Origin: SAR202 cluster bacterium bin16
GTDB taxonomy: Bacteria > Chloroflexota > Dehalococcoidia > Lucifugimonadales > Australimonadaceae
NCBI GenBank assembly: GCA_002238425.1
Contig: MPMJ01000008.1
Span: 1-64,000, forward strand
Reading direction: 5' to 3'
Length of the DNA stretch: 64,000 nucleotides
The notes below the pieces were generated by a model that saw only the letters and a program-made list of their open reading frames with translations, was not told the origin of the DNA and did not search any database. Of this stretch, positions 17,310 to 63,200 are shown one piece after another (the stretch's first letter is position 1; each line of letters begins with the position of its first letter). A program made the position numbers and the translations under genes.

Positions 17310-17753
17310 GGCGTTACCTCCTCGCGCGTACGGACGCGGTATAGCACCCCCACACAACCGCGTCAAAGCGGGACTGCCCCCGTCATGCCAGCGGAGGCTG
17401 ACATCCAGTGGCCGAGGTAACGTCTCCTTGAACAAGGTGTGCAACCGGCCCATGAACCTGCACATCTTGTTGCTGGCGTTACGAGTAAACCGAGGGCTCC
17501 GTTTGAGCACCTTGAGCACCTTGTGTTGCTCTCCGCAAGGCCACGGCCTGCTTCCGATGACAACTGAACAAGGTGTTCAACGATTTCAAGAGTTGGGCGC
17601 CCGAGCCATAGATCCTGTCTATAGCTGAGGTGTGAGGTATAGACGCGGTCTATAGGCACTGTCGGCAGGATGGTCATGCAACCAGCGTACGGAATCGCAG
17701 GCCGACCGCGCCAGGGGCGCGTGTCACAGGAGTAGATGTGTCGGAGGGCAGAG
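17310..17753 (+). repeat. Intergenic element copy A (about 262 bp, 17430-17691) and flanks
   Basis: This gap holds a full copy of a dispersed element. 14-mer words are GAACAAGGTGTGCA (17430-17443), reversed at 17459-17472, reversed and imperfect near 17514-17527, and forward GAACAAGGTGTTCA at 17566-17579. The core GGCCACGGCCTGCTTCC lies between the third and fourth words. Two palindromes follow, ATAGATCCTGTCTAT (17608-17622) and ATAGACGCGGTCTAT (17639-17653), 31 bp centre to centre, then CATGCAACCAGCGTACG ending at 17691. Homology with copy B continues to 17726. A REP-like stretch (GTCATGCCAGCGGAGGCTGA) lies at 17382-17401. Confidence 0.85.
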
Positions 17754-18494
17754 TTACCGGGCAGGCTCGGCCAGCGCGGCGTGCAGCGCCCGGATGTCGG
17801 CCAGCCATACGCCTGCCTGCGAAAGGTAGCGCTCCACGCCGCCGTGGCGTCGACGCAGCACGTCCAAGGTGTGCGTCATCACCTCCCGGCGGCATTCGAG
17901 CATCCGCTCGAGGTGTTCCATGTCCCAGCCGCTCACTGTGCCTTCTATCCGCAGTGCTTTCAGGACCGGGGCGGCGTGATGAAGGCTGAGCACGTAGTCG
18001 TCAGCGATGACGTTGTCCGGGACTCCAACGAGCGCCAGCAGGAGCGCGATGATGAGGCCTGTGCGGTCCTTCCCCGCGGTGCAGTGCACCACCGCCGGGA
18101 ATGCGTTGGGCTGGGCGAGTACCTGCAGAACCCTGGCGATCTGCCTGGAAGACTCCTCGAGGTAGCGTTCGTTCTGCCCCTCGAGATTGGCAGGACGGTC
18201 GCCGTTCGTTCGGATGTGGGCAGGCGTGAGAGGTATGTGCCGATAGGCGATGCCCGGCCACTCCGCACAAGCGTCAGGCATCCTGGCGATCTCTCCATCG
18301 CCGCGAAGGTCAACCACTGTTCGCACGCCCATATCGGCCAGCCTGCGAACACTCTCCGGTGCGTTGAGGCGGCCGGAGCGGAATAGCGTGAGCCAGCGGG
18401 TCGTGCAGCCGTCCGCCGCAGGGTAGCCGCCGGTGTCGCGCACGTTGTGCGCGCCGGGGATGTCGACATGTCTTGTCTGCGTCAGGGTTTCCAT
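17754..18494 (-). CDS. Tyrosine/serine protein phosphatase (Y_phosphatase3-like)
   Basis: A 246-residue cysteine-dependent phosphatase. The active-site loop is VVHCTAGKDRTGLIIALLLA (C-x5-R) at about residues 137-155, preceded by an N-terminal NVRDTGGYP and VVDLRGDGEIAR, the general signature of bacterial lipid/tyrosine phosphatases of this clan. It ends 6 bases before the metallophosphoesterase gene, so the two probably share a leftward transcript. The pair is bracketed by two direct copies of the intergenic repeat. Substrate (phosphoprotein or phosphoinositide) cannot be told. Confidence 0.88.
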   Translation of the reverse strand: METLTQTRHVDIPGAHNVRDTGGYPAADGCTTRWLTLFRSGRLNAPESVRRLADMGVRTVVDLRGDGEIARMPDACAEWPGIAYRHIPLTPAHIRTNGDRPANLEGQNERYLEESSRQIARVLQVLAQPNAFPAVVHCTAGKDRTGLIIALLLALVGVPDNVIADDYVLSLHHAAPVLKALRIEGTVSGWDMEHLERMLECRREVMTHTLDVLRRRHGGVERYLSQAGVWLADIRALHAALAEPAR

Positions 18495-18500
18495 GGGGTA

Positions 18501-19349
18501 CTAGGCGACCGTTACCGGCAGCTCCGGCTCGATGAACGGCCCGACGGGTAGTAACGATCCCAATGGAGTTGGCAGTATGACCGGGTGCGAGGCGATCCTT
18601 CCCGACCTCAGGCTCACGATGCTGAAGCCGATGCCTGACGTCCTGGAGAACTCGCGGCCCGGGGCTGGGCTGGCCAGGTAGGCAGTGGACGGCGCAGTGA
18701 GCGACACTGCGTTCCCGAGGCGGGCATGAGTGGCCAGGTGGGTGTGTCCGCTCAGGACCGCGAGCACGTTGTGTCGGCTTATCACTCGTTCCAACCGTTC
18801 CCGGTCACCCAGGGTGAACCCGTCCAGATAGGCATTCACAGCATGGTGTGGGGGGTGGTGCAGGGCTATCACTGTGGGCTGCCCCACTGGGCCGAACGCG
18901 AGTTGGTTCTCCAGCCAATCGAGCTGGCGTGGGCCGATCTCTCCGTCGTCCCGCCCCGATATGGTTGAGTCGAGGACGATGATGCGGAGCCCGTCAATCG
19001 TCGTGGAATAGTAGTACTCGTCCGCATCGGTGGCCTCGGCTTCGTCGAGCATCGCCTGCCGGAATGACGAACGGCGGTCGTGGTTGCCAAGCGCTAGGAG
19101 CACCGGCGCCCCGAGCAGGGCCTCGGTCTCTCGGACGAGTTTGCGCAATCTGCGGTAGCTGGGCCACTCTCCGTGGTCGGTGAGATCTCCGGTGATGAGA
19201 ACGAAGGACGGCCTTATCTGCTCAATGTAGATGTGGTCGATGACCACCCGGAGATTCGCGGTGGTGTCGTTGCCGTAGAGTCGTTCGTCTTCATCGGCCA
19301 GGATGTGTGTATCGCTCAGGTGGACGAAATACATCCCCGAGTTGCCCAT
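18501..19349 (-). CDS. Metallophosphoesterase (CpdA/Icc-like)
   Basis: A 282-residue calcineurin-like phosphoesterase. The dimetal motifs are in order: HLSDTHILAD (DxH), LITGDLTDHG (GDxxD), LALGNHDRR (GNHD), ALHHPPHHAV and LSGHTHLATH (GHxH). This is closest to the cyclic-nucleotide phosphodiesterase CpdA group. ATG 19349 is chosen over GTG 19358, because AGGAG lies 8 bases upstream of it and overlaps the GTG. It is the first gene of a two-gene operon with the phosphatase. Confidence 0.88.
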   Translation of the reverse strand: MGNSGMYFVHLSDTHILADEDERLYGNDTTANLRVVIDHIYIEQIRPSFVLITGDLTDHGEWPSYRRLRKLVRETEALLGAPVLLALGNHDRRSSFRQAMLDEAEATDADEYYYSTTIDGLRIIVLDSTISGRDDGEIGPRQLDWLENQLAFGPVGQPTVIALHHPPHHAVNAYLDGFTLGDRERLERVISRHNVLAVLSGHTHLATHARLGNAVSLTAPSTAYLASPAPGREFSRTSGIGFSIVSLRSGRIASHPVILPTPLGSLLPVGPFIEPELPVTVA

Positions 19350-19809
19350 AGAATGCACTCCTGTTCGGACTGGTTCACCTGAAAGCTACAGGAAGAGAGC
19401 TGTGTTGTAGTTAAGTGAACTTTAGATGCGGGTTAGCGGATGTTCTTACTGCCTGAGATGTGGCGTATCAGCGCAGGACGATGAGCGTGCCGGCTGCTTG
19501 TGTTGCTCTCCGCAAGGCCACGGCCTGCTTCCGGTGACAACTGAACAAGGTGTTCAACGATTTCAACAGTTGGGCGCCGGAGCCATAGATCCTGTCTATA
19601 GCTGAGGCGTGAGGTATAGGCGCGGTCTATAGGTGCTGTCAGCAGGACGGTCATGCAACCAGCGTACGGAATCGCAGGCCGACTGCGCCAGGGGCGCGTG
19701 TCAGCGTGCAGCCTCGTCTGACAGGAACTCCTATCGCCAGCCACGAGTGGAGCAATGCGCGGGCGAGAGACGATGTATCCTGCGCGTGGCAACAAGGAGG
19801 GAGGGCATC
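19350..19809 (+). repeat. Intergenic element copy B (truncated) with a propeller-gene tail remnant
   Basis: Bases 19498-19703 repeat 17521-17726 almost exactly (about 10 differences in 206 by eye). Both palindromes (19585-19599, 19616-19630), the 31-bp spacing and one forward word (19543-19556) are kept. The first two words are missing and the copy begins inside the third. Immediately upstream, 19471-19497 matches the last 27 bases of the beta-propeller gene ending at 20941. The rest of the gap shows nothing clear except a strong AAGGAGGGAGGG ribosome site before 19810. Confidence 0.85.
19471..19497 (-). pseudogene. Remnant of a PQQ-like beta-propeller gene 3' end
   Basis: On the minus strand it reads AAGTLIVLR followed by a TGA stop, against AAGTLIALR-stop at the end of the intact gene at 20941-22257; 26 of 27 bases match. 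It abuts the truncated repeat copy B. It looks like the leftover end of a second copy that was lost or moved. Confidence 0.65.
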
Positions 19810-20931
19810 ATGATCGGACTTTCGCACGGCGGTACAACCATCTACTCATCGGACCTTCCAAGCGATGAGGCGCTGGTGGGGACTACGGATGGCGTGGTCA
19901 AGCTGCGCCGCGACGGCGAACGCTGGCCGGTGGTCAGCCGCTCGCTTGCGGGGAAGCACATCCACGCGCTGCTGTTCGTGGACGGCACGGTCTTCGCCGG
20001 AGCGTGGTGGGATGGCGTGTACGCCAGTTGGGACGGCGGGGAGACGTGGGAGGCTCGCGATGCGGGCATCGACGTTCGAAGCCTGTTCAGCCTTGCGGCG
20101 GTCGAAAGAGACGGAGGGAAGCGGCTGTTCGCCGGAACCGAGCCCGCACACCTCTACTACAGCGATGACATGGGCATGACGTGGACCGAGTTGCCGGAGG
20201 TCCGGTCTGTCGCGTCGGTGCCTCGGTGGCGGTTCGCTGCCGACCCGTTCGAGGCGCATCTCAAACACATCAACTTCCACCCGAATGATCCCGCGCACAT
20301 GTACGTGAGCATCGAGGTCGGCGGGTTGCTGGAGAGCACGGACGGCGGCGAGACGTGGGCGGACATCGAGGCGCCGAGCCCCGACGTGCATCGCACGGTC
20401 ATCGATCACCGCAATCCCTCAGTTCTGTGGACGACCGGCGGCGCCGGGTTGTTGCTCAGTGAGGATGGTGGGAGGTCGTGGCAGGAGTTGTTCGGCAAGG
20501 AGAGCGAGATCGGCGGATACCCCGATCAGCTCGTACACCTGCCGAGCAACCCGGACACGATGTATGTGTCCGCTTCGCAGACGGGGCCGCGCTCATGGGT
20601 GCGGGATGGCGCTACCGAGGGGTTCGCTGGCGGCCGGATCGCGAAGAGCACCGACGGCGGACGCTCCTGGAGGGTGCTCACGGGCGGGCTGCCTGATCGC
20701 CTGCACGGCAACGTCGAGGCGATGTGCCTCGAAGAGGCGGGCGAGAGCGTCCAGTTGTTCGCAGGCATGACCGACGGCGAGGTCTGGTGGACGGGCGACG
20801 GCGGTGAGAATTGGAGCATGGTCGCGCAACTCGCGCCGGTATCGAAGTCGGTCCACACCGAGATGCTGACCGGGACGCAGACGCACGCCCTGCGTTTCTC
20901 CGACGGCGAGCGGGTTGAGAAGACGGCGTAG
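19810..20931 (+). CDS. BNR/Asp-box beta-propeller protein (sialidase-like fold)
   Basis: A 373-residue repeat protein without catalytic signature. At least six Asp-box motifs (S/T-x-D-x-G-x-x-W) are visible: SWDGGETW, SDDMGMTW, STDGGETW, SEDGGRSW, STDGGRSW and TGDGGENW, spaced through residues about 75-340, giving a six- to seven-bladed propeller. There is no signal peptide, so a cytoplasmic or exported-by-other-route location is unclear. ATG 19810 follows AAGGAGGGAGGGCATC; the longer frame starts within a repeat. It converges with the other propeller gene at 20941. Confidence 0.85.
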   Translation: MIGLSHGGTTIYSSDLPSDEALVGTTDGVVKLRRDGERWPVVSRSLAGKHIHALLFVDGTVFAGAWWDGVYASWDGGETWEARDAGIDVRSLFSLAAVERDGGKRLFAGTEPAHLYYSDDMGMTWTELPEVRSVASVPRWRFAADPFEAHLKHINFHPNDPAHMYVSIEVGGLLESTDGGETWADIEAPSPDVHRTVIDHRNPSVLWTTGGAGLLLSEDGGRSWQELFGKESEIGGYPDQLVHLPSNPDTMYVSASQTGPRSWVRDGATEGFAGGRIAKSTDGGRSWRVLTGGLPDRLHGNVEAMCLEEAGESVQLFAGMTDGEVWWTGDGGENWSMVAQLAPVSKSVHTEMLTGTQTHALRFSDGERVEKTA

Positions 20932-20940
20932 CGCCTCCGG

Positions 20941-22257
20941 CTAGCGCAGGGCGATGAGCGTGCCGGCTGCCTCGGATGTGACGTAGAGGCCTTGAGCGGT
21001 TACGACGATCTGGCCGGTGATTGCCACGCTCGTCTCGATGATCTGAACCGGCTCGCCCGTGACCCGATCGACGACATGGAGTTCCCCGGCGTCATTGCCG
21101 ATGTAAACGAAGCGGCCTGCAACCGCAGGAGCAGAGCGGGACAGCGCCCCAGTGTCGTACTCCCAGAGCGTGCTGCCGTCCGCGAGCGATACCGCGTGGA
21201 GCCTCCCATCCCTGCTGGCGGCGTAGGCGGCTCCGTCGAGGACCGCCGGGCCGCTCAGAGCGCTGTCGCGGGACAGGACCGTACCCCATGCCAGCCCCTT
21301 GGGGAGTGGCGGTTCCGCCTGCAGCCCCCAGATGAAGAACTGCTGCCGCCATGAACGCAGTGCGCGCTCGAACGGATACTCCAGTTTTGTCCAGTCAACC
21401 GCCGCCAGTCTTCCCCGGCCGGTGCCGATGAGGATGTGGTCGCCGGTGAACACGGGACTCTGTGTGAGCGCATTGACGGTGTCGAAGATGAGGCGCTTCC
21501 TGCCGGTTGCGAGGTCTATCACGTAGACCAGGCCGTCATCCGCCGCCAGCGCCATCAGGTCTCCCTGGAACGACGGAGGAGCGACGATGCTCCCGTCTGC
21601 CTGGAACGTCCAGAGCTCCTTGCCATCCTGTGCGTCGATCGCGTAGAGCGTGCCGTTCCATGACCCTGCGTAGACAACGCCTTTGTAGAAGGCGGGCGAT
21701 GCGAAGAACGCGCTGTCGGCCTGGAGGCTCCACAGTTCCGTGCCATCGTGCCGGTCCATCGCGAGCAGCAGTCCGTCGCGCACCGTCACGTAGACGGCGC
21801 CCGGCGTTACGACGGGGGTGGTGACCGCCACGGTGGCGAGTTGGCGTTCCCAGAGGACATCGCCGGAGGCGCTGTCCATCGCAACGATCCGGTTGTCCCC
21901 CGTAGGGAGGAAGACCTGCCCGTCGGAGACGGCAGGCGCAGCGGGGAGGAGGTGCTGCGTTTCGAGCCTCCAGAGCTCCTCACCCTGGAAACCGCCGTGG
22001 AGTGGCGCGGCTGCCGTATGCGCGGCGTCGCGGCCGGCCATCGCCCAGTCGTCGGCATCAACCGGCGCGTTGGTCTGCGTCGCCGGTAGGGGAACGGGGC
22101 CGGTGAAGATGACGCCGGAGACCCACAGACCCCAGACCGCCAGGACGACGCCTACGATGCCGGCAAGCGCGAGCCACCTGAGCCTGGAACGCGAACGGTT
22201 GCGGCGTTGTGCGGCAGCGTGGGGCGTATCGCTCTGACTACGGAGCGGGCTGATCAT
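20941..22257 (-). CDS. PQQ-like (BamB-type) beta-propeller, membrane anchored
   Basis: A 438-residue protein. Residues 1-25 are basic, then one membrane helix at about 28-52 (LRWLALAGIVGVVLAVWGLW), and the rest faces outward. Repeats such as IVAMDSASGDVLWERQL, LLAMDRHDGTELWSLQ, LYAIDAQDGKELWTFQ and VVDRVTGEPVQIIE are PQQ-like propeller blades (YAxDxxxGxxxW). No quinoprotein active site is evident, so a structural or binding role is likelier than dehydrogenase activity. The 3' end is duplicated at 19471-19497. Confidence 0.85.
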   Translation of the reverse strand: MISPLRSQSDTPHAAAQRRNRSRSRLRWLALAGIVGVVLAVWGLWVSGVIFTGPVPLPATQTNAPVDADDWAMAGRDAAHTAAAPLHGGFQGEELWRLETQHLLPAAPAVSDGQVFLPTGDNRIVAMDSASGDVLWERQLATVAVTTPVVTPGAVYVTVRDGLLLAMDRHDGTELWSLQADSAFFASPAFYKGVVYAGSWNGTLYAIDAQDGKELWTFQADGSIVAPPSFQGDLMALAADDGLVYVIDLATGRKRLIFDTVNALTQSPVFTGDHILIGTGRGRLAAVDWTKLEYPFERALRSWRQQFFIWGLQAEPPLPKGLAWGTVLSRDSALSGPAVLDGAAYAASRDGRLHAVSLADGSTLWEYDTGALSRSAPAVAGRFVYIGNDAGELHVVDRVTGEPVQIIETSVAITGQIVVTAQGLYVTSEAAGTLIALR

Positions 22258-29829: not shown

Positions 29830-30352
29830 GAGCAATCATCCTCCGCAGTATGAGTGTGGATAGGCGTAGATTATCACGCCTCAGCGCGGGTTGCGCCGTG
29901 AGTGGGGTAAGGCGGCGAGAGTGAGAACAAGAATCTCATCGGCCCCCAGCCGTGACATCCTTGTTCGGGATTCCACGAGTGGATGGAGTCCCCGCTTTGA
30001 CATTCTTGTTCCTTGGCTGGAAGGCATTTCCGTGGCCGTAGACTGCTTCCCGCGAACAAGGCAACAACAATCTCATCGATTTCAAACTTTGCTCCGTGTT
30101 CCCATAGATCCTGTCTATTCCTGAGATGGCAGCTATAGATTCTGTCTATGGGTAGTGTTGGCGTCGCGCACATGTATCCAGCGTAGCGGATGCGGGGGCG
30201 ATGGGGTAAGGGGCGGATGTCAGATGTTGTGCACCCTCGCGCGGCTCTTCCGCGCCGCGCCCTGATTCCCGCCTTCGCGGGACTGACGGGCAAGGCGGGA
30301 CTGACGGGTAAGGCGGGAATGATGGCGGAAGGGCGGGGACGACGGAACTGTG
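29830..30352 (+). repeat. Intergenic element copy C (29925-30187) and a tandem repeat
   Basis: A full copy of the dispersed element. Words are GAACAAGAATCTCA (29925-29938), reversed at 29953-29966 and 29998-30011, and CAACAACAATCTCA (30062-30075). The core CGTGGCCGTAGACTGCTTCC precedes the last word. Palindromes are ATAGATCCTGTCTAT (30104-30118) and ATAGATTCTGTCTAT (30135-30149), 31 bp apart, then TATCCAGCGTAGCGG. Further right, an 18-base unit GGGACTGACGGGYAAGGC occurs twice in tandem at about 30283-30318, next to a TTCCCGCCTTCGCGGGA inverted repeat. Confidence 0.85.
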
Positions 30353-32347: not shown

Positions 32348-32358
32348 GCAGGAGCGGG

Positions 32359-33021
32359 TCAGAGGACGCGGTAGGCCCAGACGTTGTACCAGATGTCGGG
32401 CTCTCCGTTGGGCAGGGGCAGGAAGGGTTCGGAGCGCTCTGCGAGTTCCCACTTGCCCGCTTCTTCCAGCGCGTTCTGTTTCACGTCGAAGCCGGCCTCC
32501 GTGTAGTGGTCAGGGCGGATGGTGAAGACGACGTAGCCGCCGGGTTTAGTGACGCGGACGAGTTCGTCGAGCGACTCGGGCGGGGCGTGCCCGATGGTGA
32601 ACGTGCCGACGCATGTCGTGGAGTCGAAGGTGTCGCTCTCGAAGGAGAGCGGCTTGCCGAGTTCCCCGACGACGAGTTCCTCGTAGACGAGTTTCTCGTT
32701 GGCGACCATCAGCATGCCGGCGGAGAGATCGAGCGCGGTGATGCGCTTGAAACCGACCCGCGCGAGCTCCTGGCCGACCATGCCGGTGCCTGCGCCCGCG
32801 TCGAGCAGCTTTGCTTCGGGGTCGGAGACGTACTTCGCGAGTGTATCGACGGCGGTGCGGGGCCCGATGAAGCCAAACGACTCGAGGTCGGCGTCATATT
32901 CGGTGGCCCAGTCGTCGTACGTGGTCGTCAGCTCGTCGTCGTCCGTGGTCTTCGGCTGTTCGTTGCCCTTGGAGCCGTAGACCTTTTGGAAGCGTTCGAA
33001 TCGTGCCTTTTCGCTGGTCAT
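32359..33021 (-). CDS. Class I SAM-dependent methyltransferase (tandem copy 1)
   Basis: A 220-residue methyltransferase. KLLDAGAGTGMVGQELARVG is SAM motif I at about residues 70-90, ITALDLSAGMLMVAN is motif II, and ESLDELVRVTKPGGYVVFTI is the late motif with PGG. ATG 33021 is preceded by GAGGGC. It is closely related to the next gene upstream; together they are a tandem duplication separated by repeats. The substrate is unknown; both share an unusual N-terminal region DELTTTYDDWATEYDADLES. Confidence 0.88.
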   Translation of the reverse strand: MTSEKARFERFQKVYGSKGNEQPKTTDDDELTTTYDDWATEYDADLESFGFIGPRTAVDTLAKYVSDPEAKLLDAGAGTGMVGQELARVGFKRITALDLSAGMLMVANEKLVYEELVVGELGKPLSFESDTFDSTTCVGTFTIGHAPPESLDELVRVTKPGGYVVFTIRPDHYTEAGFDVKQNALEEAGKWELAERSEPFLPLPNGEPDIWYNVWAYRVL

Positions 33022-33292
33022 GGCGATGCCCTCGTATGGCGTGGATTGTCCCGCAGGCTATCACGGGCGGGTAGTCTCTCTCCGGGACTGCGGGGTTCCT
33101 GCAAGGGTGGGAATGGCCCAAGGCCCTGCAAGCCGTGTAAGGGAGTCGAACGGGGAGGTGCGACTCCTCCCGGGCAAACGTCTGGAGTAATCCGACGTTT
33201 CCCGAGAGATGTTCGACTCCGCCTCCGGCTCCGCTCAACATGACAACCGAGGGGCGACGTTCCTGCGAAAGCAGGGGCGTCAGGGGAGGGGA
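33022..33292. repeat. Intergenic repeats between the tandem methyltransferases
   Basis: Contains GAGAGATGTTCGACTCCGCC ... CTCAACATGACAA at 33203-33246, a copy of the repeat at 26466-26511, followed by TTCCTGCGAAAGCAGG (33261-33276), an inverted repeat of the common REP type. No gene is seen in this stretch. Confidence 0.65.
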
Positions 33293-33979
33293 CTACAGGA
33301 CGCGGTAGGCCCAGACGTAGTACCAGATGTCGGGTTCGCCGTTGGGCATGGGCTGGAAGGGGTCGGTCTGTTCGACGACCTCCCACTTGCCCGCCTCGGC
33401 CAGCGCGTTCTGCTTCACGTTGAAGCCGCCCTCCGTGTAGTAGTCGGTGCGGATGCTGAAGACGATGTACCCGCCCGGCTTCGTGACGCGGACGAGTTCG
33501 TCGAGCGACTCCGCCGGGGCGTGGCCGAAGGTGAACGTGCCGACGCAGGTCGTGGAGTCGAAGGCGTCCGTCTCGAAGGGGAGGGGCTTGGCGAGTTCGC
33601 CACACCCCAAACCCTCCGTGTCGAAGGAGAGGGGCTTGCCGAGTTCGCCAACGACCAATTCCTCGTATACGAACTTCTCGTTGGCGGTCATCAACATGCC
33701 GGGGGAGAGGTCGAGGGCGGTGATGCGCTTGAAGCCGAGCCGCGCGAGCTCCTGGCCGACCATGCCGGTGCCCGCGCCGGCGTCGAGCAGCTTGGCCTCG
33801 GGGTCGCTGACGTACTTCGCGAGCGTCTCTGCTGCCGTGCGCGGGCCGATGAAGCCGAGCGATTCGAGGTCGGCGTCGTAGTCGGTGGCCCAGCCGTCGT
33901 ATTCGGTGGTCAGTTCGTCGTAGTCCCTGGAGTCGTAGACCCGCTGGATGCGTTCTGTGCGCGCCTTGTCAGATGTCAT
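33293..33979 (-). CDS. Class I SAM-dependent methyltransferase (tandem copy 2, internal duplication)
   Basis: A 228-residue paralogue of the gene at 32359. Motif I KLLDAGAGTGMVGQELARLG and the PGG motif are the same. It carries a 16-residue extra segment because GELGKPLSFDTEGLGC is followed by GELAKPLPFETDAFD, where copy 1 has a single GELGKPLSFESDTFD. The DNA shows a 48-bp tandem repeat (33570 and 33618), one unit degraded at its end, which may be an assembly artefact. ATG 33979 lies behind CGGAGGCTATGCC. Confidence 0.85.
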   Translation of the reverse strand: MTSDKARTERIQRVYDSRDYDELTTEYDGWATDYDADLESLGFIGPRTAAETLAKYVSDPEAKLLDAGAGTGMVGQELARLGFKRITALDLSPGMLMTANEKFVYEELVVGELGKPLSFDTEGLGCGELAKPLPFETDAFDSTTCVGTFTFGHAPAESLDELVRVTKPGGYIVFSIRTDYYTEGGFNVKQNALAEAGKWEVVEQTDPFQPMPNGEPDIWYYVWAYRVL

Positions 33980-53906: not shown

Positions 53907-54506
53907 CTCTTCACTCCGGGCGTACATGGTTCTTCAGGGCGTTCGTCTGGTGGATGTGGGCTGCACAGGGCGCCCGCTGATTCTACACAAACCCAGACCC
54001 CGTTGGGGAACAGGACGGCGCGCCGGTTCCTCCCTTGAGGAGACTTTGCGTAGCCTTGCGGTGGGGCGCGGTGCAGGTGTTTGATCCCCTCTCCCAGGCG
54101 TGGGAGAGAGTCAGAGTGAGGGCTGTCGAACCACTGACAACCGCCCCTTTCGCGGTCGCGCCTCGACCGCGTACGCTGGTTGCATGACCGTCGTGCTCGC
54201 ACAACCCATAGACCGCGTCTATAGCTCAGGGCTCCAGCCATCAACAGCGCCTATGGGTCCCGCGCAGATACTTGAATTCGATGGCCCCCTTGCCCCTTGG
54301 TCGCGGGAAGCAGGCCACGGCCTGGGAAACACCCGGTATCAAGGGGGCCATGTGGCCAGATTGACCGTCCGGTTCACTCGTGGGCGGTGATCAAGGGGGC
54401 CAGTTTCAGGGAGGCGTTGGCCCCCTTGATCGCAATCGTCCGGCGCGGCCTCCGGCAGCGGCGCTCCGCTGGCGGTGAGCCCGTATAATGACCCACGAGG
54501 TAAGAC
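53907..54506 (-). repeat. Intergenic element copy D (54170-54431, reversed) and flanks
   Basis: Read on the minus strand it has the same order as copies A and C. Words are GATCAAGGGGGCCA (54418-54431), reversed at 54389-54402 and 54337-54350, and GGGCAAGGGGGCCA (54282-54295), with the core GGCCGTGGCCTGCTTCCCGC before the last word. Palindromes are a degraded one (54240-54254) and ATAGACGCGGTCTAT (54208-54222 on the other strand), 32 bp apart. CATGCAACCAGCGTACG ends the element. To the left, a CCTCTCCCAGGCGTGGGAG repeat occupies about 54090-54110. Confidence 0.85.
54484..54489 (+). promoter_or_regulatory. -10 box (TATAAT) upstream of nadK
   Basis: CCGTATAATG, 17 bases before the GTG start, with CGAGG 6 bases before the start. 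The -35 is not clear. Confidence 0.45.
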
Positions 54507-60287: not shown

Positions 60288-63200
60288 CTACTCCGTAACA
60301 TCCGTCACGGTGATGGTGACAGTGGCCGTGTCCCTCAGCCCGTTCACGTCGCGCGTCTCGACGGTCAACGTGTATGACGTGGTCGTCTCGTAGTCCAACG
60401 TCTTCATAAGCCAGAGGTCGCCCCTGTTCAGGTCGATGGCGAACATCCCTGCGCCGTTCCCCGCCGTGATGTGGAATGTAACCGCCTCGCTCGCTTCAGG
60501 GTCCACCGCGTCCAACAAGCCGACGCGTGTCCACACCCCGGCATCCTCCGCGATGGAGAACGTGTAGCTGGACACCGACGGCACGACGATGACGACCGTG
60601 GCCATGTCCGTCAGCCCACTATTGTCCCGCGCCTCCACCGTCAGCGTATGCAGGGAGGCCGCCCCGCTGGACGGCGCCTTTGCGAGCTGGATGTCGCCGA
60701 AGTTGAGGTCGATGGTAAACGTCCCTCCGTCGTTTCCCGCAATGACGTGGTACGTGACCGAGTCGCCCGCGTCCTGGTCTGCCGCGGTCACGAGGCCGAC
60801 GCGTGTCCCGACTGGCGTGTTCTGCGCGGCCGAGAACACGTAGCGGGACCGCGGGAAGGCGGCGCGTGCATGCACCCCTCCGTGACCGTGTACGAAGCGC
60901 TGTCGGAGGGCATGCCCCACTCGGCGAGGTACGCCGTGCCGTCGCCGCGCGCACGCACGCGGAACTCGAGTGTGGTCCCACAGAGGGTGGAGCCGGGCGG
61001 CGTGAATGCCGTGCTCAGGCTCGTTATGTCCTCCACGTTCGTCCATGCGTCCGGTGACTGAGCCGCGCGGTGCTGCACGCGGTACAGGTCCACCCCTGCC
61101 ACTGCGGACCAGGCGATCCCTATCTCCGCGTCAGCGTTGTCCGCCACGGTGACCATGTCCGTCGCCGGAGGTATCTCGTCACAGTAGCTGAGATTAAGCG
61201 TGCTCAGGTCGTTGTTCGCAACATCCCGCAGCCCCGGTGGCAGGCATATCGTGAAGGAGTTCCCCGCCAGCCGCAGGAACGTCAGGCTGTCCAGGCCGTC
61301 CAACTCCTGAGGCAGCATGCCGGTCAGGCTGTTGCCGTTCAGTGTCAGGTGCGTCAGCGCCGACAGCAGTCCAAGCGACGGTGGAACGCGCCCGGTGAGG
61401 CTCCGTGACGGCAGTTGTAGCTTCGTCACGCGGCCCGGCGTACCGGCGACCGTCACTCCGTCCCAGCTCGTTATCGCCGTGTCCACGCTCCAGTTCAGCG
61501 TTGCCGTTCCCGCTAGGGGGTCCTTCGCCTTCAGAAGCGCATCGCAGTCGAAGGCCAGTTCGCGATTGAGTCCGGCGTTCGGTACGGCGGCTCCAGTGTC
61601 GCAAGCCGACACGGCAGGCGTATCGTTGTCGAGGACGTTCACGAGAGCGCTCGACGTTCCGATCTGGTAAGCGGTACCCGACCGGACTTCCACGCGGACC
61701 GTGCCGTGCCGCTCATAGGTCGTATCGTCGTCCGTTCGGAGAACGAGGTCAGCCGTGGCGCTTCCGCGGCGGATCGTGACGCTGCGTGGTAGTTGGGTCG
61801 CGCCCTCGATGAAGGAGCCGGTCGTCGCGACGCTCACTCCCACGGTGAGGTCCGCCGCCGGGGCCGGTGCTGCCCTCAGTGTGAAGGCAACGTTGGTCCC
61901 CTCGTTCACGTCGCCACTGCTCTTCCGTGCGATGCTTACTACGGGCAGAGACAACGGCGTCCCTCTTGCACTGGAAGACCACGGGCTGCAGGGAGGCAGA
62001 CCACCCACGCCGGCGCAGGCCCGCACCTGCACGTCGTACGAGTTCGCGCTGAGCTGGGCCAGCGTCTTGCTTGCCGTGCCGGTTGTCAAAGAGGTCACTG
62101 TCCATGACGGCGCACTGTCAGGGGCGGACGTGAGCTTGTACCGTATCTGATAGCCGGTGATTGCGGAGCCTGCCGGGGGGGTGCCCCGGGTCACCTGGAG
62201 CCTTGCGGTCCCCGCCGTGACCGTTGGCCGAGACATCCTGGACGGACAGTCTCCGATGCCTGCCGAAGCGCTCGACGACCACAGGCCCCACTCGGTCGAA
62301 TAGGCGGAGCCGTTCCCTCTCGCGCGGACCTTGAACTGGTAGGTTGCTCCGCATTCGCCCGTGCTGAACGGCGTTATGGCGACGTGCGTTCCGGTAGCCG
62401 TGTCCTTGGTCCATGGGCTGGAGGAATCCTTCCGGTAGGCGAATTCATACTCGGCCGCGCCCGTCACGGCTTCCCAACTCAGCGTGAACGACCCATTCGA
62501 GTAGGTTGCGGATACGTTCGAAGGCACGGGAGCGCACGCCCGTGCGGTGATGGTCTCGGGCTCCGACCACGCACTCCACCCGTCCAGGTGCTCTTGGCCG
62601 TCCCCGCGGGCGCTCACGCTGAATTCATACTTGCTTCCGCAATCGATGCCCCCGTCGGGCGTTATCGTCGCGCTCGTATCTGCAGTCGTCTCCGCGTTCC
62701 CCCAGCCGGCGTCCGCCGTCTTCCTGTACTTGTACCGGTACTCGGTCACGCCCTCCATGGCGTCCCAACTGAACACGAAAGAGTCCGACGGCTGGCTGAT
62801 CCCCAGGGAAGAAGGACTTTCGACCTCAGTGAGTTCGCTGGCTGGCAGCGAGGCGGAGAGTGTGGGCGGCGTGGGCGCTGGAGTCGGGGTTGAGGTGGGG
62901 GCCAGCGTTGGAGTCGGGGTCGGTGTCGCAGTCGGTGTGGGCGCTGGAGTCGGCGTTGAAGTGGGGGTCGGCGTTGGGGTCGGGGTCTGTGTCGGAGTCG
63001 GCGTTGAAGTGGGGGCCGGCGTTGGAGTCGGGGTCTGTGTCTGTGTCGGAGTCGGCGTGGGTGCTGGAGTCGGCGTTGAAGTAGGGGCCGGCGTTGGCGT
63101 TGCAATGGTGAGCGATGCCTTCGTCTCCGAACGTGCCGCGTTTCCAGTGCCTGCATCCCTGATGGTGAAGCTTATGGAGTCGCTGTCCGAGTTCTCGTGG

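Follow-up and report, generated by a model that had tools for sequence, protein, structure and literature searches.

Gene content of the locus and the repeat pair

The first 64,000 nucleotides (nt) of contig MPMJ01000008.1 from SAR202 cluster bacterium bin16 (GenBank assembly GCA_002238425.1; this whole stretch is called the window hereafter) contain a pair of direct repeats, 17521-17726 and 19498-19703. A sequence-only reading of the window had described them as repeats of equal length with about 10 differences, and indeed both measure 206 nt and differ at 10 positions (95% similarity over 207 nt in the repeat finder; blastn E=2.4e-90). They bracket, as that reading also stated, a two-gene unit at 17754-19349, both genes being on the minus strand and assigned to Pfam families, and the second copy begins inside the third of a series of words, 19498 corresponding to a point within the tandem word GAGCACCTTGAGCACCTTG of copy 1. 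Here we describe this repeat as a member of a family of short elements of one Chloroflexota genus, which seem to be reduced relatives of a selfish element with a helicase-like gene of its own.

The extent first given for copy 1 was too short. The promoter-side model (R1) and the hairpin-half model (R2) together place this copy at 17423-17727, and thus position 17521 is merely the point at which copy 2 is cut. The repeat is not private to the pair either, since blastn, with 40 of 72 candidates scored, found at least 27 matches in the genome of 3.22 Mb, including two more sites in the window at 30102-30222 and 54135-54323. The idea that the pair forms a special recombination cassette was not borne out, as there are 12-19 complete copies per genome and most of them stand before other genes. 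The features of the locus and the related elements of the window are the following:

17423-17727, minus strand: element copy 1, complete short form of about 305 nt, before an amidohydrolase gene (R2 17423-17582, 132 bits; R1 17569-17727, 120 bits)
17423-17475, minus strand: hairpin B of copy 1, with the same words as hairpin A again, and element end (RNAalifold; cross-hairpin tests)
17502-17582, minus strand: hairpin A of copy 1, constant loop GGAAGCAGGCCRYGGCC flanked by copy-specific words of the GAGCACCTTG type (RNAalifold)
17606-17656, minus strand: twin palindromes of copy 1, CTATAGAC..GTCTATAG and CTATAGAC..ATCTATGG (alignment)
17673-17727, minus strand: promoter-like end of copy 1, TGACA..GCCCCT..TACGCT plus the conserved GCATGAC (alignment; pattern search)
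17754-18494, minus strand: Y_phosphatase3 protein, first interval (Pfam E=7.1e-56)
18501-19349, minus strand: Metallophos/calcineurin-like metallophosphatase, first interval (Pfam E=3.1e-20; in one of six genus genomes at E<=1e-10)
19470-19497, no strand assigned: 28-nt copy of the 3' end of a PQQ/BamB-like gene, joined to the cut element (one mismatch in 28; blastn E=2e-9)
19498-19704, minus strand: element copy 2, cut in the word region, without hairpin B and with half of hairpin A (R1 19546-19704, 122 bits)
19810-20931, plus strand: BNR/PSII_BNR-repeat protein, second interval (Pfam PSII_BNR 2.6e-15)
20941-22257, minus strand: PQQ/BamB-like gene
20943-20970, no strand assigned: stretch presumed to have supplied the 28-nt junction segment, at the 3' end of the PQQ/BamB-like gene (sequence match)
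29918-30223, minus strand: further complete element (R2 29918-30078, R1 30065-30223)
54134-54438, plus strand: further complete element (R1 54134-54292, R2 54279-54438)

Copy 1 itself deviates from the exact promoter-side pattern of the family, and over its palindromes (17598-17664) the R1 model also matches its own reverse strand. In copy 2 the full-element hidden Markov model (HMM) ends at position 211 of 305, and the R2 match reaches just 33 bits.

Anatomy of the short element

A complete short copy measures about 304 nt (range 273-329). Among 103 loci of five genomes of the genus, those of the relatives being drawn from the matches listed there, 80 copies are complete. Toward the next gene, the order is TGACA..GCCCCTT..TACGCT..GCATGAC, palindromes (usually two, of the CATAGAC/GTCTATG type), hairpin A with its constant loop GGAAGCAGGCCRYGGCC, an ACTCGTA linker, and hairpin B. 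For 15 copies of one genome, copy 1 among them (alignment A2), RNAalifold predicted 34 base pairs, 13 of which carry double compensatory changes, and 13 such pairs were also obtained with a second alignment (A3). Compared with shuffled sequences, one copy folds 6.8 standard deviations below them and another just 1.95.

The stem words vary between copies, but within a copy they are common to both hairpins, and cross-pairing between the hairpins of a copy is strong. Pairing energies within and across hairpins beat all shuffles, both in 78 of the 80 copies (0/2000; two copies with unparseable loops were left out) and in 22 non-redundant copies (0/5000), whereas a same-sense pairing control fails to do so (281/2000 and 3052/5000, respectively). 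The A5:A5 self-pairing control also beats every shuffle, with a smaller gap (-14.5 vs -12.4 in the 78-copy test), so that the pairing signal is partly due to the words being self-complementary. A riboswitch-like switch between the two hairpins was considered and set aside, because each local hairpin is on average the stronger fold and, as nested structures, the two cross-pairings would be mutually exclusive. A protein-coding reading of the short copies was also discarded, as in the alignments, inspected by eye, indels between copies are off the codon period and stops occur early. In Rfam, eight element loci gave no match at E<=1, and at gathering thresholds the window yields just a tRNA.

Some loci show other arrangements. 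Four of them (L043, L049, L051, and L131) carry two or three modules in tandem after one promoter-like end. At four loci of the genome of the window (L053, L056, L057, and L018), a promoter-like end of the same kind precedes leaders of direct words of about 10 nt, of the GAGCAGnAAT or AATGGCTCA types. These leaders are perhaps a second family with a different reader.

A long form with an ATPase gene

In the genome of the window, seven of the better R2 module matches have no good promoter-side match, and four of these lie directly 3' of a gene. This gene encodes a protein of about 515 amino acids that contains an AAA_25 domain (E=2.4e-15 and 7.5e-11 in two proteins of this genome), an N-terminus that looks zinc-finger-like by eye, and a C-terminus predicted as a winged helix in both structure models (C-terminal predicted local distance difference test, pLDDT, about 70-87; mean 76.8). 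Foldseek searches with the C-terminus placed PadR-type regulators on top, none of them at E<=0.001, and a second structure aligner returned various winged helices, cullin tails included, with Z up to 8.9. No replication initiator stood out in these fold searches, a result that has no bearing on membership.

The gene was searched in six genomes of the genus, i.e., that of the window (G000) and five others (G001 to G005). At E<=1e-8 it is present in all five element-bearing genomes and absent from the only one without elements (G001). The 26 rows of this search comprise 17 close-family 3' ends, four second pieces of these genes, three divergent homologues (L300, L304, and L307), and two fragments (L292 and L312). 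All 17 close-family loci whose 3' end is visible have the hairpin module after the gene; nine of them also show the 5' end, and in eight of these nine the gene is preceded by the promoter-like end. The stop codon, located in 13 of the 17, lies between 40 nt before and 1 nt inside the module match. At the other end, the ATG of the ATPase gene is that of the conserved GCATGAC of the short copies, R1 beginning 49-50 nt upstream (seven places checked by hand). The neighbours of the long forms look like host genes (open reading frames of six loci, judged by eye, with no family search).

The short copies retain some traces of this gene. Four of 79 have the 3' coding end of the gene as their middle part (15.7-36.7 bits; controls 0/79 each), the same four scoring when the last 22 nt are left out, and two more (8.6 and 9.9 bits) match just the border beside the module. 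Hence, the expectation that the middle of the short copies corresponds throughout to the gene's 3' end was dropped. In 38 of 79 short copies the word arms find a match among the arms of the long forms (0/79 when shuffled; one of the 80 copies was left out for an unparseable loop).

Relatives of the ATPase in phages and plasmids were limited to three and five records covering just 17-23% of the protein at less than 35% identity. None was found in IMG/VR, and a sequence search of the PDB returned only the Walker region of RecA.

Several ATPase genes (L200, L218, L229, and L235) contain VIPAxAGIQS-like peptide inserts, which we take to resemble the intergenic repeat CGTCATTCCxGC; in L218 the reading frame is broken near the insert. 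When L283 is compared with L229 and L235, the same SDR/CoA-transferase neighbourhood is seen to carry an ATPase element in three genomes, that of G000 pointing away from the CoA-transferase genes.

Words and the C-terminal helix

Among 16 loci (L306 was left out because its C-terminal frame was not found), the distance between words correlates with the distance between the C-terminal helices (r=0.50; 0/3000 permutations), as well as with that between the wings (r=0.36, p=0.006) and between the whole C-terminal stretches (r=0.55). In the subset of ten loci for which the ATPase core was available, the helix gave r=0.75 (p=0.0003) and an 80-residue window of the core r=-0.05 (p=0.64). Five loci combine the word GAGATTGTTG with the helix SRSTLVRAR or SKSTLVRAR, two combine GGCACTCTTG with SRRTLFRAR, and two GCACACCTTG with SKGTLRRAR. 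The correlation supports, but does not prove, that the word is read by the protein; most likely, the winged helix would read the word that its own element carries.

Exchange of the hairpin module

From the BLAST lists of the flanks we assembled by hand 61 of the 80 complete copies into 21 orthologous groups, which provide 67 orthologous pairs. Hairpin B is different (identity below 0.62) in 33 of these pairs. In those 33 pairs the promoter-like end has an identity of 0.85 (0.72 for non-orthologous pairs), whereas hairpin A, linker, and hairpin B are at the level of non-orthologous copies. Identity drops past the second palindrome, loop and linker changing as one unit with the words. Of 31 pairs for which a flank match was available, 10 become conserved again, in both genomes, no more than 7 nt from hairpin B. 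Three different G003 loci have near-identical modules (0.88-0.91) and promoter ends only 0.65-0.76 identical. Comparison of orthologous copies thus indicates that modules have been swapped as blocks, the promoter-like end being vertically inherited, and we infer that this exchange is active. If so, the family illustrates that the hairpin cassette can be replaced while a promoter-side sequence stays in place throughout a genus. One G005 copy has an apparent relic of an older module end behind the newer module.

Distribution of the element

In G000 there are at least 87 matches to R1 at E<=0.01, many covering just the first 50-70 positions or so, and at least 47 to R2 at E<=0.1 (lower bounds, with 150 of 992 and 150 of 788 candidates scored, respectively). 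Among the matches listed for the relatives, for which 49 candidates per genome were scored under stricter filters, elements are frequent in G002 to G005, as they are in G000. Over 59 genomes, R1 gave matches at E<=0.001 in nine: these five carriers, G001 (two weak matches), G021 (one weak match), G044, and G057; the ten other genomes of the family had none. The matches of G044 and G057 lie on short contigs (6146 and 7218 bp) and are, by eye, near-identical to copies of G003 and G000, and they were not counted, as they are probably a binning error. The exact promoter-side pattern occurs 36, 6, 20, 25, and 17 times in G000, G002, G003, G004, and G005, respectively (104 in total) and not in G001, and the reversed pattern gave no match. 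Searches of G001 with R1, this pattern, and the ATPase returned two weak, zero, and zero matches.

A pattern made of loop plus linker was found in 56 stretches of 84,980 species genomes, a set that may omit the genome of the window, and 53 of these stretches are in Chloroflexota metagenome-assembled genomes (MAGs). Matches in Prevotella, in an Acidimicrobiales MAG, and in one viral contig were negative with the element HMM, and one in Syntrophobacteraceae reached 11.7 bits over 36 positions; all of them were taken as chance. So far, this element has been seen only in one genus, and no description of it was found in the portions of the literature covered by our search.

Position in front of host genes

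With flanking genes called by a simple codon score, 67 of the 76 complete copies with enough flank face a gene of the same strand at a median of 105 nt, while the opposite side is mixed (35 to 41). Nine copies depart from this rule, several of them orthologous to each other. For instance, orthologous elements in four genomes (L033, L114, L156, and L170) have a gene ahead on the opposite strand, and thus not every element leads into a gene. A sigma70-like promoter is often found between element and gene: 29 of 79 flanks score at least 8 of 12, compared with 3/79 in one shuffle and 3/77 inside genes. At the uvrB site, G000, G005, and G002 carry an element and G003, G004, and G001 do not. The clean comparison is G004, where the end of the upstream gene and the nearest promoter region are as in G000, without the element. 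By eye, the uvrB region of G003 has an array of another word type (GAGCAG) further upstream.

Origin of the repeat pair

The bracketed genes are not fixed in relatives, as the sequence-only reading had anticipated. The orthologous site of G003 and G004 has a single element followed after about 280 or 230 bp, respectively, by the PQQ/BamB-like gene, and since this gene lies so close, neither the phosphatase nor the metallophosphatase is present there. At E<=1e-10 no homologue of the metallophosphatase was found in the remaining five genomes of the genus (the protein search covered this gene and not the phosphatase), and homologues of the BNR-repeat gene lie elsewhere in relatives (G005:C10 and G004:C6, 84% DNA identity).

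The breakpoint previously postulated inside the word now looks like the junction of a tandem duplication. The 28 nt to the left of cut copy 2 (19470-19497) repeat the 3' end of the PQQ/BamB-like gene (20943-20970) with one mismatch, and only 1 of 300 random 28-mers of the window matches equally well at another place in the 64 kb. The join unites the end of the gene with the inside of the element, one base being common to both. Because the segment left of the breakpoint copies the end of that gene, the pair looks like the product of a tandem duplication with one end inside copy 1 and the other 28 nt within the next gene. Such an event would have created the second, truncated repeat, and the genes of the intervals may have arrived before or after it. 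The two units now measure 1,977 and 1,473 nt and hold different genes, i.e., the phosphatase and metallophosphatase in the first interval and the BNR-repeat gene in the second.

Interpretation and alternative explanations

By comparison among genomes we could delimit the family and its boundaries, the block exchange, the partner gene, the correlation between word and helix, and the duplication junction. We consider it somewhat more probable than its negation, with a probability of roughly 0.57, that the repeats are the non-coding short form of a mobile ATPase element, a rep-plus-iteron unit similar to that of the Staphylococcus aureus pathogenicity islands (SaPI) without a recognised transposase. 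The long form would consist of the promoter-like end, an apparently leaderless ATPase gene, and a two-hairpin module of about 160 nt, whose hairpins are built from tandem and inverted copies of one word of 9-10 nt. The winged helix would read this word as the SaPI Rep helicase reads the iterons behind its gene, and the module would be an origin-like site or array. Since the short forms share both ends with the long form and have no gene, they would depend on ATPases of matching word type acting in trans. They lie upstream of host genes, in many cases immediately ahead of a sigma70-like promoter. More tentatively, they might exemplify mobile elements of a class that has no transposase and comprises only a helicase-like ATPase and a word array read by its winged helix, in which lineage-specific words and the recognition helix evolve as a readable code, origin-only copies stand before at least 12 host genes per genome, and cassettes are swapped repeatedly. 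If this is true, a replication-type ATPase with its binding array can act as a dispersed repeat family with non-coding copies before host genes, and natural recognition helices paired with different words would be ready material for a specificity code of winged helices.

Several observations weigh against this explanation. Neither target-site duplications (TSDs; longest word shared by the flanks 4.61 vs 4.64 when shuffled) nor, by eye, inverted ends in the A2 consensus were found, and no transposase or recombinase was identified, the search having covered just the Y1 transposase and the reverse transcriptase, both confined to G000. Three divergent ATPase homologues have only weak module matches, L294 and the fragment L312, the latter outside the 17 close-family loci, have the 5' end in view with no promoter-end match, two long forms (L290 and L297) contain an in-frame stop, and the full-length ATPase is poorly modelled (pLDDT 48). 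As for the short copies, 75 of 79 have no 3' coding end of the gene, only 18 of 79 have an ATPase with a matching word in their own genome at the threshold used, and 61 of 80 occupy positions shared with another genome, as would a resident regulatory element. The word reading has its own difficulties: L302 is mixed, with different words in hairpins A and B and a helix of the SRRTLFRAR type; the core window used for comparison is strongly conserved; and the Mantel test ignores relatedness, L295 and L299, for example, being one lineage. In addition, the gene end adjoins the module and the core lies about 1 kb away, so that joint exchange of gene end and module could produce the correlation without any reading.

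Among the alternatives, we find it unlikely that the copies are resident cis-regulatory leaders, with TGACA..TACGCT as promoter, the hairpins in the 5' untranslated region, and the ATPase gene as one (auto)regulated gene of the regulon. The orientation toward a same-strand gene, at a median of 105 nt and with the other side mixed, the positions common to other genomes, and the compensatory changes of the hairpins would all be expected from such leaders. However, sigma70-like promoters lie between element and gene in some cases (29/79), the uvrB element of G000 is missing in G004 between the same neighbours, unrelated loci carry similar modules, and the word is tied to the DNA-binding domain encoded beside it. 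We give even less credit to an AAA transposition helper of the TnsC/IstB/MuB type, with end-binding sites and a transposase acting in trans from elsewhere. A weak Pfam match to TniB (E=0.026, one copy), PHROG matches to a 'DNA transposition protein' on the C-terminus (E=7e-4 and 1e-3), and the retention of both ends by the short form argue for it, but neither TSDs nor inverted ends were seen, and the AAA_25 and DnaB-type matches score better, the latter also being weak.

It is very improbable that hairpins and words are a functionless by-product of mutation, kept alike by template switching between inverted and tandem words. That process would yield concerted change of all the words of a copy, across both hairpins, but the constant loops are retained, loop and linker vary en bloc with the words, and the words track the C-terminal helix. 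Hairpins of REPINs are served in trans by an encoded protein, the RAYT. Drive by a RAYT or by a reverse transcriptase (retron or group II intron) was rejected here, since the Y1 transposase (PF01797) and the reverse transcriptase (PF00078) each occur in one of the six genus genomes, only G000, and hence are not common to the element carriers. Concerning the pair itself, a Campbell-type integration of a circle carrying the phosphatase, the metallophosphatase, and one element would agree with the direct repeats flanking both genes and with the relatives without metallophosphatase; this origin appears doubtful, because it leaves the 28-nt copy of the PQQ gene fused to cut copy 2 unexplained.

Comparison with known systems

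Returning to the proposed mobile ATPase element, the closest parallel is the Rep helicase of the SaPI, whose C-terminal domain recognises iterons directly downstream of its own gene (excerpts of PMC7581432). The Rep-ori units of SaPI and other phage-inducible chromosomal islands (PICI), as well as Cch2 of the staphylococcal cassette chromosome mec (SCCmec), resemble the long form in having a helicase-type ATPase with a C-terminal DNA-binding domain, here a predicted winged helix, and short repeats directly downstream of the ATPase gene (same excerpts). In contrast, no integrase or phage-linked genes were noticed by eye beside this ATPase gene at six loci, and here there are 3-7 gene matches per genome, a two-hairpin layout of words, and non-coding relatives before host genes. 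Miniature inverted-repeat transposable elements (MITEs) such as Correia/NEMIS and ERIC are likewise short, dispersed, non-coding, and hairpin-forming, with possible promoters (PMC2229807 and PMC10969869, in part), and in MITEs derived from insertion sequences the short form also shares both ends with a longer coding element. Here, however, no inverted ends or TSDs were found, the partner is an ATPase and not a transposase, and modules are exchanged in place. Thus, we have filed the element neither as a SaPI, as island genes were not noticed by eye, nor as a MITE, as inverted ends and TSDs were not found.

The CIR repeats of Caulobacter also have two long inverted-repeat arms with a linker, but copy-specific words common to the arms and a partner gene are not mentioned for them in the excerpt of PMC2229807. 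The pneumococcal BOX is a modular repeat with predicted RNA structure whose insertions can affect nearby genes; it varies in boxB number, whereas here whole modules differ in place (PMC3049150, in part). REPINs are dispersed hairpin sequences too (PMC8049555, in part), but here no Y1 transposase is common to the carriers.

Other repeats of the window

Two more direct repeats of 300 nt each, with 85-86% identity and 934 and 982 nt apart, lie at 32351-33920, and a tandem array with a spacing of 12-24 nt (11 overlapping copies in the repeat finder) occupies 62846-63124.

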